Assembly: GCF_009740285.1 (NCBI RefSeq)
Contig: NZ_CP046566.1
Span: forward strand, 2,600,501-2,664,500
Direction of reading: 5' to 3'
DNA from: Phnomibacter ginsenosidimutans
GTDB taxonomy: Bacteria > Bacteroidota > Bacteroidia > Chitinophagales > Chitinophagaceae
DNA length: 64,000 bases
Shown: in pieces, positions 5,117 to 20,198 of the stretch
Layout: every line of letters starts with the position of its first letter
Numbering within the stretch: position 1 is the stretch's first letter
Translations under genes and position numbers: made by a program
The notes under the pieces: model-generated
Database searches by the model: none
What the model was told of the DNA's origin: nothing
Seen by the model: only the letters and a program-made list of their open reading frames with translations

Positions 5117-5177
5117 AAACACGAATTAAACAAATTGGACTGATTACACGAAAGGAATCAACCCGAATGATGCGAAT

Positions 5178-5196
5178 ATTACGAATTACACGAATT
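5178..5196 (+). repeat. Left arm of a perfect 19-bp inverted repeat around the GxxExxY gene
   Basis: ATTACGAATTACACGAATT. Its exact reverse complement occurs at 5802-5820, on the other side of the GxxExxY gene. Surrounding bases (from about 5112) contain further degenerate CACGAATT and TTACACGAA units. Confidence 0.8.
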
Positions 5197-5245
5197 ATTT
5201 TAGGGTACGCAACAACACTTACACTTTAAAAGCCTTACACCACAC

Positions 5246-5620
5246 ATGACTGAATTATTGTACAAAGATGAATCCTATCTAATCATTGGCAAATGCATGG
5301 AAATTCACCGGCTACTTGGTTTTGGTTTTAAAGAAGCCGTGTACAAAGATGCGTTGGAATTAGAGTTACAGGCAGAAGGCATTCCATTTCAAAGAGAAAA
5401 ACGTTTTGAGGTAGTGTATAAAAATGTGGTGTTGCGTCATCACTACGTAGCCGATTTTGTAGTGTTTGATCGCATTATTCTGGAGATAAAAGCCACTGCA
5501 GCAGTGCATGAAGCATTTACTTTTCAAACTGTCAATTATCTGAAAGCAAGTGGGCTTCGACTTGGTATGATTATCAATTTCGGTGAAAAGTCATTGCGAT
5601 ATCACCGGGTAATCCTTTGA
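5246..5620 (+). CDS. GxxExxY family protein (PD-(D/E)XK nuclease-like fold)
   Basis: A 124-residue protein with the name-giving motif G27-E30-Y33 (GFKEAVY) and a likely PD-(D/E)XK core: Asp70 in ADFVVFD and Glu80-x-Lys82 in LEIKA. The family is widespread in Bacteroidota and other phyla, and no biological role is established. The gene sits inside an AT-rich element bounded by a perfect 19-bp inverted repeat (5178-5196 and 5802-5820). Its stop codon lies within the first of two direct repeats (5611-5680 and 5707-5777). It points against its neighbours ruvX and the ubiA-like gene. A nuclease-fold gene in a repeat-bounded unit suggests a small mobile or selfish element, but that is inference. 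Confidence 0.85.
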   Translation: MTELLYKDESYLIIGKCMEIHRLLGFGFKEAVYKDALELELQAEGIPFQREKRFEVVYKNVVLRHHYVADFVVFDRIILEIKATAAVHEAFTFQTVNYLKASGLRLGMIINFGEKSLRYHRVIL

Positions 5621-5680
5621 ACACTAATTCAGCTAATATTCACGAATGACACGGATTGAATACAAGAAATAATAAATCAC
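5611..5680 (+). repeat. Direct repeat copy A after the GxxExxY gene
   Basis: About 70 bases, imperfectly repeated at 5707-5777. Shared blocks are AATCCT, TGAACACTAATT, GCTAAT, GACACG and ATTGAATACA, ending in AATCAC. The first bases include the stop codon of the GxxExxY gene. Confidence 0.7.
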
Positions 5681-5706
5681 AATTATACCTACACACTAAT
5701 TCGTGC

Positions 5707-5777
5707 AATCCTGTGAACACTAATTGGGCTAATTGCCACAGATGACACGAATTGAATACAGTAGATCAATTAATCAC
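5707..5777 (+). repeat. Direct repeat copy B after the GxxExxY gene
   Basis: Second copy of the unit at 5611-5680, offset by 96 bases, with scattered substitutions. It lies wholly outside any gene. Confidence 0.7.
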
Positions 5778-5801
5778 CATTAAACTTATATCCAATAAAG
5801 A

Positions 5802-5820
5802 AATTCGTGTAATTCGTAAT
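5802..5820 (-). repeat. Right arm of the 19-bp inverted repeat
   Basis: Exact reverse complement of 5178-5196. It lies about 20 bases from the 3' end of the ubiA-like gene. Confidence 0.8.
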
Positions 5821-5839
5821 CATTCGTTCCAATCCGTGT

Positions 5840-16978: not shown

Positions 16979-17740
16979 TTAGTTAGCAGTCAACGCTGCG
17001 CCGAGATACTCTTGGTTGAGGCGGGCAATGTTGGTGAGGCTGATACCTTTAGGGCAAACAGCTTCGCAGGCACCAGTATTGGTACATGCACCAAAGCCTT
17101 CCTTATCCATTTGTGCAATCATGTTGAGAGCACGTGATTTACGTTCGGGAGCACCCTGTGGCAGCAATGCCAGTTGCGTTACTTTGGCAGAAGTAAACAA
17201 CATAGCTGAACTGTTTTTACAAGCAGCTACACAAGCACCACAACCAATACAAGCTGCTGCGGCAAATGATGCATCCGCTTTATCTTTTTCAATAGGCAGT
17301 GCGTTGGCATCCACAGCATTACCCGTGTTTACGCTAATGAAACCACCCGCCTGAATGATACGGTCGAAAGCGCTGCGGTCTACCATCAAATCTTTCAGCA
17401 CAGGAAAAGCGCCGGCTCTCCAGGGCTCAATGGTGATGGTGTCGCCATCTTTGTAGGCACGCATGTGCAGCTGGCAGGTAGTGTTTTGCTCCCAAGGGCC
17501 GTGTGGACGACCATCGATATACAAAGAGCACATGCCACAGATGCCTTCGCGGCAGTCGTGGTCGAAAGCAATCGGGTCTTTGCCCTCAGCAATCAACTCT
17601 TCGTTGAGCACATCAATCATTTCCAGAAAGCTCATTTCTGAAGAAATGTTTTTTACCTGATATGTTTCAAAACCACCCTGAGCCTGCGCATTCTTTTGAC
17701 GCCATACTTTCAGGTTGAGATTCATATTATAATGTTCCAT
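16979..17740 (-). CDS. sdhB: Succinate dehydrogenase/fumarate reductase iron-sulfur subunit
   Basis: The electron-transfer subunit of complex II. It has a [2Fe-2S] ferredoxin domain with CREGICGMC and a distal Cys in NTTCQLH. It also has two C-terminal cluster motifs, [12 protein letters not shown] and [12 protein letters not shown]. The length (253 residues) fits b-type SdhB of Bacteroidota. An internal ATG five codons later (17725, [10 protein letters not shown]) may be the real start. It belongs to an sdhC-sdhA-sdhB order on the minus strand. It is separated from sdhA by 484 bases holding a four-helix-bundle gene bounded by inverted repeats. Confidence 0.95.
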
Positions 17741-17759
17741 AAGCTAACAATGAATGTGA

Positions 17760-17789
17760 CAATTTGAAGATTTGAAAATTTGAAAATGA
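17760..17789 (+). repeat. Left arm of an imperfect 30-bp inverted repeat in the sdh operon
   Basis: An AT-rich unit starting CAATTTGAAGATTTG and ending GAAAATGA. It matches 24 of 30 positions of the reverse complement of 18194-18223. The two arms bracket the four-helix-bundle gene. Confidence 0.65.
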
Positions 17790-17806
17790 AACCTCACTAG
17801 ATTATT

Positions 17807-18160
17807 TCAGGCGTTTGCTTTTGATGTTGCAATGATGCTAGAAAGTATTCTAATGATTTCATTTAATTGATTCATGATCTGTTCTTCGTATGGATAGCTG
17901 CCGCATCTGTTACACAGCATCAACCAGTACTTTGTTTCTGTTGCTTCCTTTGCTGAAATCTTCATTTTATGAATGAAATCAGCTTTGCTTTCTGCGTTTT
18001 GTGCTTCAAAAACATTTGCACCGATTGATGTGCCACATTTTAGAAGCTGATGACTGACCACGTACTTTTTCCGTCGCTCAAGTTCTTCACAGAATCCTAC
18101 AATTGCTTCGGAAAAATCCAGTGTTTTATTAACTATAACATTTTCCTTATCACTACGCAT
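17807..18160 (-). CDS. Four-helix bundle protein (S23 / 23S rRNA intervening-sequence type)
   Basis: A 117-residue all-helical protein of the S23/Avd-like four-helix-bundle family. Typical features are DFSEAIVGFCEELERRKKY, VSHQLLKCGTSIGANVFEAQ (the conserved GTSIGANV motif), FIHKMKISAKEATETKYWL and a C-terminal helix ending in SSIIATSK. Relatives are encoded in intervening sequences of 23S rRNA genes and elsewhere in Bacteroidota, and their role is not settled. Here it lies inside the sdh operon, in the same direction, between sdhA and sdhB. Imperfect inverted repeats at 17760-17789 and 18194-18223 bracket it, filling almost the whole gap. It looks inserted as a unit. Confidence 0.88.
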   Translation of the reverse strand: MRSDKENVIVNKTLDFSEAIVGFCEELERRKKYVVSHQLLKCGTSIGANVFEAQNAESKADFIHKMKISAKEATETKYWLMLCNRCGSYPYEEQIMNQLNEIIRILSSIIATSKANA

Positions 18161-18193
18161 GTTGTAAACTTTTGGGTGTGGTATTGAATTTTC

Positions 18194-18223
18194 TCATTTC
18201 CAAATTACCACATTTCCAAATTG
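18194..18223 (-). repeat. Right arm of the 30-bp inverted repeat in the sdh operon
   Basis: On the minus strand it reads CAATTTGGAAATGTGG at the start and GGAAATGA at the end, 24/30 identical to 17760-17789. It begins one base from the stop codon of sdhA. Confidence 0.65.
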
Positions 18224-18224
18224 T

Positions 18225-20198
18225 TTACTTGTAGCTTCTTTGGCTTGGCTTAACCACTTCATAGTCCAGCACTTCTTTGTGCAGTTCCCACTGATGGTCT
18301 CCTTTGTATTCCCAGGCGGCTACGTACATGTAGTTGGCATCGTCGCGTTGTGCTTCACCTTCGGGTGTCTGGCTTTCTTCGCGGAAGTGACCACCACAGC
18401 TTTCGTTGCGGTTGAGTGCATCAATACACATCAGTTCGCCCAGCTCTATAAAGTCGGCTACACGGTTGGCCTTGTCCAGTTCAGGGTTCAGCTCGTTGAT
18501 TTCACCGGGGATTTTTACATCGCTCCAGAATTCCTTTTTCAGCTGCTGAATTTCTGCAATCGCTTGCTTCAATCCCTCAGCGTTGCGAGCCATACCGCAC
18601 TTGTCCCACATGATTTTACCCAAACGCTTGTGGAAGCTTTCCACAGTTTTGGTTCCCTTGATACTCATCAGTTGTTGGATGCGATCGGCTACGGCTTTCT
18701 CTGCTTCCACAAATGCCGGATGATCTTCGGGCAGCGGCTTGGTATGAATATCGTCAGCCAGGTAGTTGCCCAAAGTGTAAGGAATCACGAAGTAACCATC
18801 GGCCAAGCCCTGCATCAGCGCCGATGCACCGAGGCGGTTGGCACCGTGGTCGCTAAAGTTGGCTTCGCCCAAAGCATACAAACCGGGCACGTTGGTCATC
18901 AGTTCGTAGTCTACCCACAGGCCACCCATGGTGTAGTGTACCGCGGGGTAAATGCGCATCGGTGTTTCGTAGGGGTTTTCGCCAGTAATCTTTTCGTACA
19001 TATCGAAGAGGTTACCGTATTTCTCTTTCACTACTTCTTTACCAAGGGCAATGATTTCTGCTTCGCTGGCATGGTCGAGGCCTTTTTTACCGGCTTCAAT
19101 TTTGCCGTAGCGCTTAATGGCATCGGCATAATCGAGGTATACAGCCTGCTTGCTGCTGCCTACCCCATAGCCGGCATCGCAACGCTCTTTGGCAGCACGG
19201 CTGGCCACGTCTCGGGGTACCAGGTTGCCAAAAGCCGGGTAGCGACGCTCCAGGTAGTAGTCACGCTCCTCTTCAGGAATATCAGCTGCTTTGCGGGTAT
19301 CGTTTTGTTTTTTGGGCACCCAGATACGACCATCGTTGCGGAGCGATTCACTCATCAGGGTGAGCTTGCTCTGGTGGTCGCCACTTACAGGAATACAAGT
19401 GGGGTGAATTTGTGTAAAGCAAGGGTTGCCAAAGAAGGCGCCTTTTCTATGGGCTTTCCATGCGGCAGTTACGTTGCTGCCCATGGCGTTTGTGCTCAAA
19501 TAAAATACGTTGCCATAGCCACCGCTGCACAGCAGTACGGCGTGGCCAAAGTGGCGTTCCAGTTTGCCACTCACCAGGTCACGGGCAATGATACCACGGG
19601 CTTTGCCGTCTACCACAACCACATCCAGCATTTCGTGGCGGTTGTACATGGTTACGTTGCCCAATGCTACCTGGCGTTCCAGTGCACTGTAGGCACCCAG
19701 CAACAACTGCTGACCCGTTTGGCCGGCAGCATAAAACGTACGCTGTACCTGTGTACCACCAAACGAACGGTTGCTCAGCAAGCCACCATATTCACGGGCA
19801 AAAGGCACACCCTGCGCCACGCACTGGTCAATGATGGCACCACTTACTTCGGCCAGGCGATGCACATTGCCTTCACGGGCACGGTAGTCGCCACCCTTAA
19901 TGGTATCGTAAAACAAGCGGTACACACTGTCGCCATCGTTTTGGTAGTTTTTGGCAGCGTTGATACCACCCTGTGCCGCAATACTGTGGGCACGGCGGGG
20001 GCTATCCTGAAAGCAAAACGCTTTCACTTTATAACCCAGTTCGCCAAGGGCAGCAGCAGCACTGGCACCAGCCAGGCCGGTACCTACCACTACAATTTCC
20101 AGTTTGCGTTTGTTAGCCGGGTTTACCAGCTTACAAGTGCTTTTATACGATGTCCACTTTTTGTCGAGCGGTCCGGCAGGAATTTTTGCGTTCAGCAT
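18225..20198 (-). CDS. sdhA: Succinate dehydrogenase/fumarate reductase flavoprotein subunit
   Basis: Catalytic subunit of complex II, converting succinate and fumarate with covalently bound FAD. A dinucleotide-binding motif [20 protein letters not shown] sits near residue 35. The FAD-linking histidine is in [14 protein letters not shown]. The active-site region contains [19 protein letters not shown], and a further family motif is [20 protein letters not shown]. The length (657 residues) fits the Bacteroidota/epsilonproteobacterial b-type enzyme. It is preceded by sdhC with a 119-base gap. Confidence 0.96.

Follow-up and report, generated by a model that had tools for sequence, protein, structure and literature searches.

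The gap between the succinate dehydrogenase genes sdhA and sdhB of Phnomibacter ginsenosidimutans holds a small cassette, in which one gene for an S23-type four-helix-bundle protein is framed by two inverted arrays of a short repeat. The same architecture was found at most of the S23 loci that we examined in relatives. Furthermore, the type of repeat goes with the subfamily of the S23 protein, arrays of the same kind stand without the gene at other gaps, and sites that are occupied in one genome can be empty in a close relative. These observations suggest that S23 protein and repeats act together as a single unit. We read the cassette, with a probability of roughly 0.6, as a selfish unit resembling REPINs and their RAYT proteins, whose S23 protein would recognise its own 7-8-mer repeats.

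The window, that is, the whole stretch of DNA that was analysed, comprises 64,000 nt of contig NZ_CP046566.1, and the features of the cassette and its host operon are listed in Table 1. An earlier note on this DNA had reported an S23-type gene between sdhA and sdhB, and domain searches confirmed the gene as well as its neighbours. Specifically, the 117-aa ORF exceeded the curated cut-offs of both PF05635 (E 1.1e-22; 80.7 bits, cut-off 33.8) and the TIGR02436 four helix bundle protein model (92.4 bits, cut-off 24), placing it in the S23 / 23S_rRNA_IVP family, and its sequence matched the solved structure 2rld (3e-24). No catalytic domain was found in the S23 protein of the window. The imperfect inverted repeats, given in the note as 24 of 30 matching positions, were recovered here as arms complementary at 25 of 31 positions, and both arms are arrays of an 8-mer resembling AATTTGAA. 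The TAA stop codon of sdhA immediately adjoins the upstream arm. In the arm test described below, the cassette scored 32, whereas none of 1196 other placements in the window scored above 30; these placements avoided the vicinity of the cassette and that of a PF13366 gene at 5267-5593, whose own arms score 45. At Rfam gathering thresholds, a tRNA was the only match in the window.

Table 1. Features of the cassette and its host genes, in window positions; arm sequences are given in operon sense.
Feature	Position	Strand	Domain, family or structure match
sdhA (succinate dehydrogenase/fumarate reductase flavoprotein), upstream host gene	18225..20198	-	Pfam Succ_DH_flav_C, FAD_binding_2
Upstream arm, ACAATTTGGAAATGTGGTAATTTGGAAATGA, AATKTGNN octamer array	18194..18224	-	
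S23 / 23S_rRNA_IVP four-helix-bundle gene, 117 aa, co-oriented with the operon	17807..18160	-	PF05635, TIGR02436, 2rld
Downstream arm, inverted copy, TCATTTTCAAATTTTCAAATCTTCAAATTGT	17759..17789	-	
sdhB (iron-sulphur subunit), downstream host gene	16979..17740	-	Pfam Fer2_3, Fer4
Complete cassette, 466 nt from arm to arm	17759..18224	-	

We measured sdhA-sdhB gaps in 28 genomes, including that of P. ginsenosidimutans (28 gaps; two of the 30 loci lacked the sdhA end). As the note had stated, the two genes are usually almost contiguous, with a gap of at most 137 nt in 18 of the 28 genomes and a median of 69.5 nt. An S23 gene with arms was present in four gaps, namely those of P. ginsenosidimutans, G018, G012 and G016; the arms of the latter three were judged by eye, and the S23 frame of G016 is open only in part. 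The six remaining gaps were 176-1202 nt long and mostly contained other ORFs as judged by eye, and the gap of G022 holds a PF13366 (GxxExxY-type) gene. Sites without the gene, for which the note had proposed to look in close relatives, were found within the genus: G006, with a 99% identical SdhB, has retained, on either side of a 27-nt filler, the downstream arm and 20 nt of the upstream one, and G002 (SdhB 98%) has a 30-nt gap with neither arms nor gene. SdhA or SdhB sequence adjoins 27 of the 80 closest S23 loci from named genomes. When the sdh label is mapped on the S23 tree, it changes 6 times, compared with 24 times after shuffling; 23 of 28 sdh copies form one group with weak support (83/86), and the tree does not settle the position of the window copy. 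Since S23 genes at sdh cluster on the tree, mobility there would be old, and the sdhA-sdhB cassette looks like an old, mostly inherited element that has been lost repeatedly. The mobility considered in the note holds in that site occupancy varies among close relatives, but the sdh copy does not look freshly mobile; conservation between sdhA and sdhB, which the note had named as speaking against its proposal, is half borne out by the 27 loci.

We compared cassette turnover among the genomes G000, G002 and G006. No clean insertion with target duplication was seen when six cassettes were compared with nine counterpart loci. At L001, L004 and L131, homology ended no more than about 35 nt from the arms, and at L132 it ended 68 and 31 nt outside them. 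At L001 and L131, the entire stop-to-start spacer differs between the occupied and the empty site, which is compatible with insertion but equally with replacement or with rapid turnover of the spacer. At L006, a decayed relic retaining much of one arm is present in G002 and G006 (by eye), and at L003 about 260 nt of S23 are gone in G006. The L132 site carries a different hairpin in P. ginsenosidimutans, and relatives have another heptamer array at the L004 site (both by eye). When L189 was set against L131, the relatives had an S23 cassette, whereas the spacer of P. ginsenosidimutans was only 31 nt long and contained a small hairpin of CCCCTAAAGGGG.

PF05635 was matched 159 times in 34 of 39 genomes, with eight matches in P. 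ginsenosidimutans, which is among the 34. We examined 117 of these matches, mainly the better-scoring ones, from 31 genomes; those left out were mostly partial or weak matches, plus the sdh copies of G012, G016 and G018 that were viewed with the sdh gaps. Nine of the 117 loci have stops in the matched part, and two were dropped because of short flanks, leaving 115. The upstream flank was then locally aligned with the reverse-complemented downstream flank, using a threshold score of 28. Inverted arms reached this score at 82 of the 115 loci, compared with 1.8% of permuted pairs, 0.5% of the 1196 placements elsewhere in the window and 1.4% of 72 placements that had been shifted. Seven of the eight loci of P. 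ginsenosidimutans passed, L002 (29) and L004 (28) barely so, and its L008 is among the 33 loci that scored below 28. For plasmids, 45 records with S23 were available, and 12 were chosen for taxonomic spread (10 from Cyanobacteria, one from Gemmatirosa and one from Bernardetia of Bacteroidota). Arms scored at least 28 at 11 of these 12 S23 genes, 10 of the 11 outside Bacteroidota, and eight exceeded the permuted 95th percentile of 36, which is high because the cyanobacteria share repeat units. The arm units on plasmids include AACAGGG and GGTGACA, and on two cyanobacterial plasmids an S23 gene with arms lies between cas6 and cas4. The singular new setting that the note had seen in the sdh operon is thus too narrow a description, given that arms are usual at the S23 loci of the relatives examined and on the plasmids sampled.

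The arms are quasi-tandem 7- or 8-mers that differ between loci and match within a locus. Their period is 7 in 53 and 8 in 22 of the 82 elements, and their autocorrelation is 0.55 at lag 7, 0.52 at lag 14 and 0.41 at lag 8, compared with 0.22-0.37 at all remaining lags between 2 and 19. In the inward direction the arms contain little C, which is rarer than G in 72 of 82. Elements have a median length of 508 nt, and the longest arms observed around an S23 gene, at L137 of G032, are near-identical inverted copies of about 160 nt each (score 203). Taking as neighbours the longest open frames rather than annotated genes, as was done for all position and orientation counts of S23 loci, arrays and PF13366 genes, we found that the upstream arm adjoins the stop codon, at a median of -0.5 nt (40 of 54 within -10 to 15), and that the downstream arm lies ahead of the ATG, at a median of 14 nt (44 of 66 within -10 to 25). 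The S23 gene is co-directed with both neighbours at 48 loci, opposed to both at 6, and mixed or unclear at 28. Host contexts are diverse and include sdh, rplR and, as named by eye, acc and groES-groEL. At L010, the groES-groEL gap (names by eye) has a TTTGAAA array on one side and a GCACATTAGC array on the other, before the groEL start codon.

We next consider how the repeats relate to the protein. At non-syntenic loci, arm likeness correlated with protein identity (r 0.133, 0/999 permutations; r 0.139 with either arm orientation), compared with r 0.028 in the reversed-arm control. With a limit of 0.45 for similar arms, which was set during that analysis, similar arms were found in 2% of pairs below 30% protein identity, 2.4% at 45-50%, 15% at 50-55% (n=40), 36% at 55-60% (n=14) and five of seven pairs at 60-80%. 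In the subfamily of the window copy, AATKTR-like octamers are shared by 80 loci, which come from Flavobacterium, Arenibacter, Niabella and Pedobacter, among others. When such units were counted with one mismatch allowed, at least three were present in both arms at 63 of the 80 loci compared with 1 of 111 other S23 loci; when a single arm sufficed, the counts were 78 of 80 and 3 of 111. Note that these loci are not independent. They represent 22 flank contexts, and two contexts alone account for 26 and 24 of the 80 loci, so that part of the coupling between arms and protein is explained by shared ancestry at a site; 18 of the 22 contexts have at least one locus with units in both arms. An arm score of at least 28 was likewise observed at 63 of the 80 loci, compared with 48% of permuted pairs, a high rate because the unit is common to all of them. 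In six orthologous S23 pairs of equal length (three pairs of unequal length were not counted), codon differences were 2-9 synonymous and 0-6 non-synonymous in five pairs and 30 and 11 in one, counts that are too few to measure selection.

Three exact AATKTGNN units were found in 16 of the 39 genomes. Arrays away from the cassette were present in seven of nine genomes with the subfamily compared with seven of 30 without (Fisher p 0.005), where a close S23 was defined as at least 100 bits by tblastn, a cut chosen after the results were seen. The count of seven of nine applies with the cassettes' own arms removed, a step checked by tblastn on 50 array loci, six of which contain S23; with own arms counted, it was nine of nine compared with seven of 30. 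G001 and G009 have AATKTGNN only as the cassette's own arms. The reversed control pattern was absent from 37 genomes and occurred six times in G001, compared with two real matches, and three times in G012. G022 has no close subfamily S23, yet 34 AATKTGNN array matches, and its arrays adjoin the ribosomal protein gene rplR. For a second unit, GTGAANN, arrays were found in five of six genomes with its S23 group compared with nine of 33 others (p 0.016); this comparison is partly circular, as the genomes were picked beforehand, but from loci chosen by arms and protein likeness, and own arms are still counted. Among 75 distinct arrays, a few of which are cassette arms, 34 closely follow a stop codon and have the same sense, and 25 closely precede a start codon and have the opposite sense; nine stand after a stop in the opposite sense, five before a start in the same sense, seven near neither and 12 inside called ORFs, with overlapping categories. 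Two-arm hairpins with short loops and no S23 gene were seen at L282, L288, L289, L297 and L303-L305. At L283 of G011, a genome without PF05635, three octamer arrays each precede one ORF in a row of ORFs on the same strand, and a fourth array lies behind the last ORF of the row.

Genes of other families were also seen between inverted arms. In the window, the PF13366 (GxxExxY-type) gene at 5267-5593 (+) lies between arms at 5173-5202 and 5796-5826 that are built on ATTACGAATTACACGAATT, the whole spanning 5173-5826. Among PF13366 genes of relatives (L152-L181) and the window, inverted arms scored at least 28 at 16 of 31, compared with 2.2% of permuted pairs. These arms are of another style, with CACAGAG and CACAAAG and a weak period near 9, and PF13366 may be a second small-gene family with its own arm type. 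At L301 (975-2002), inverted AATKTGNN arrays roughly 1 kb from each other enclose a GIY-YIG nuclease gene (PF01541, 5e-13), which may represent a third type of cargo or a nested element.

In the reading that we prefer, an S23 cassette would consist of one small four-helix-bundle gene and two inverted cognate 7-8-mer arrays in the stop-to-start gap of an operon. The S23 protein would bind the repeat units in a sequence-specific manner, and arms and protein would spread and persist together as a selfish unit, with intercistronic gaps as the sites that tolerate copies. Hairpins consisting of arms only would be non-autonomous derivatives. Another enzyme is presumed for the copying step because the window S23 protein has no recognisable catalytic domain. 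REPIN/RAYT is the closest mechanistic analogue of this putative unit. The likeness lies in inverted hairpin doublets, extragenic dispersal and the tie of each class to one type of protein gene (PMC3116915); here too, gene-free inverted doublets are dispersed in extragenic space, with the 12 of 75 arrays inside called ORFs as the exception. In contrast, the repeat here is a 7-8-mer array and not a REP, and the cargo is a four-helix bundle of PF05635 and not a Y1 (HUH) tyrosine transposase. Y1_Tnp had no match in nine of the 39 genomes, including G017, which has three S23 matches and 268 GTGAA array matches. A general dependence on a Y1 transposase was rejected, as S23 carriers without a Y1_Tnp match exist, and so was a required partnership with a reverse transcriptase, as there are S23 carriers without RVT_1.

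The note had likened the cassette to the intervening sequences (IVSs) of 23S rRNA genes, and this likeness stands. In Coxiella burnetii, the 23S rRNA IVS is 428-444 nt in total (428-nt element), has a 28-bp stem and an S23 ORF, and is excised by RNase III; tandem heptamers lie on its 5' side, where they separate the RNase III site from the start of the ORF. IVSs are patchy in presence and their ORF is decayed in some strains (PMC4990558). The window cassette shares with them the S23-family ORF, a similar overall length, the terminal inverted repeats around the ORF (25/31), tandem short repeats, patchy presence and occasional decay of the ORF. However, it lies between sdhA and sdhB and not inside an rRNA gene, its arms are made of octamers, and gene-free array copies are many. 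From this similarity of anatomy, it is possible, though in our judgement unlikely, that the arms pair in the sdh transcript, so that RNase III would cut the stem, release the S23 mRNA and uncouple sdhB from sdhCA, as the note proposed. In 70 of 79 elements (three of the 82 were omitted for length), the predicted sense RNA pairs half or more of the upstream arm with the downstream one, but antisense RNA pairs about equally (68/79), and the sense RNA of the window cassette, while folding better than its shuffles (z -3.97), leaves the arms unpaired in its minimum-free-energy fold. The 48 co-directed against 6 opposed loci would suit excision from an mRNA, but PF13366 genes have a similar orientation bias (15 against 3), so that this bias need not be specific to S23. 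Upkeep of a stem at the RNA level should favour sense-strand mismatches compatible with G.U pairs. Three of four mismatch sets, two of which overlap in loci, lean in this direction (70/59, 16/10, 23/14), but the main set shows no lean (70 against 70), and the pooled lean is not significant (p 0.35 for the S23 sets; p 0.17 for all four, with PF13366). Moreover, single gene-adjacent arrays would not be excisable in this way. The counts of mismatches and folds lend no support to the RNA processing proposed for the sdh mRNA but would also be compatible with cleavage by RNase III.

Lack of a significant G.U bias would fit homogenisation at the DNA level, and with it the idea that the arms are quasi-palindromic microsatellites grown by slippage or template switching, in which S23 genes merely lodge. 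That the arms are short quasi-tandem repeats and that gene-free arrays are common agrees with such passive filler, but it fails to predict like units around related S23 proteins at non-syntenic sites, and we regard it as rather improbable. We give similarly low weight to a regulatory role, in which S23 would be an RNA-binding regulator forming a TRAP-like ring, the arrays flanking starts and stops its operators, and the cassette an autoregulator of the host operon. Such a role would be in line with the homopentameric ring of a Xanthomonas S23 homologue (PMC4990558), with the translational control that MacGregor proposed for TAACTGA arrays before start codons (PMC4679880), and with the 25 opposite-sense arrays upstream of start codons and 34 same-sense arrays after stop codons among the 75. 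Against it, 14 placements break this rule of sense (5 before a start, 9 after a stop), the content of the gap at one site differs between relatives, the host genes are as diverse as sdh, rplR and, by eye, acc and groES-groEL, and no common regulon was seen among them, though this was not a systematic search. A relic or partner of a diversity-generating retroelement, with S23 as an Avd-like accessory protein of a reverse transcriptase, is highly improbable. S23 and Avd are related (PMC10053308), but the match to the Avd model was only 21 bits compared with a cut-off of 80, and Avd membership was rejected; the genome of P. ginsenosidimutans (one contig, 99.4% complete) has eight S23 matches and no RVT_1, and 26 of the 39 genomes are without an RVT_1 match.

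Short repeat arrays and S23 genes have been described separately. TAACTGA heptamers occur as direct repeats in Beggiatoaceae, Cyanobacteria and five Bacteroidetes, with S1, Csp and Csr proteins as candidate partners, none of them established (PMC4679880). They resemble the arrays studied here in being 7-mer arrays just before start codons with a patchy distribution across phyla, but differ in being, as described there, almost wholly direct repeats; neither '23S' nor 'four helix' occurs in the searched text of that paper. In the P6b region of the Nostoc trnL intron, degenerate heptanucleotide repeats of several classes base pair into a hairpin as our arms could, but they lie within an intron, and no ORF is mentioned in the relevant passages (PMC3488679). 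As far as the consulted parts of these sources go, the TAACTGA arrays and Nostoc trnL heptamers (PMC4679880, PMC3488679), as well as the Geobacter heptamer sites (PMC2700814), are described with no link to S23. On the protein side, several insertion sites in the rRNA of CPR bacteria hold S23 ORFs (PMC11270868), and the S23 proteins of rRNA IVSs are presented as having no known function (PMC4990558). 23S_rRNA_IVP genes in cas loci, likewise members of this family between operon genes, were read as having a cas-associated function, and arms are unmentioned in the pertinent part of that report (PMC3936711). In the open-licence PMC literature, we found no publication that connects S23 genes, as a class, with heptamer arms on their flanks.

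A wider reading, which we hold tentatively and at somewhat less than even odds, is that S23 is the missing sequence-specific partner of 7-8-mer arrays across Bacteroidota and Cyanobacteria. Each subfamily would read its own unit, perhaps one per ring subunit, and gene and arms would form one class of selfish intergenic elements across phyla, of which the rRNA IVS would be the case that landed in an rRNA loop. The pairing of gene and array with matching units at most of the S23 loci examined (82/115) gives both the protein and the repeats a concrete, testable function. It also suggests that where an S23 gene lies in a cas locus or in the sdh operon, it occupies the gap as a cassette and does not belong to the surrounding system.
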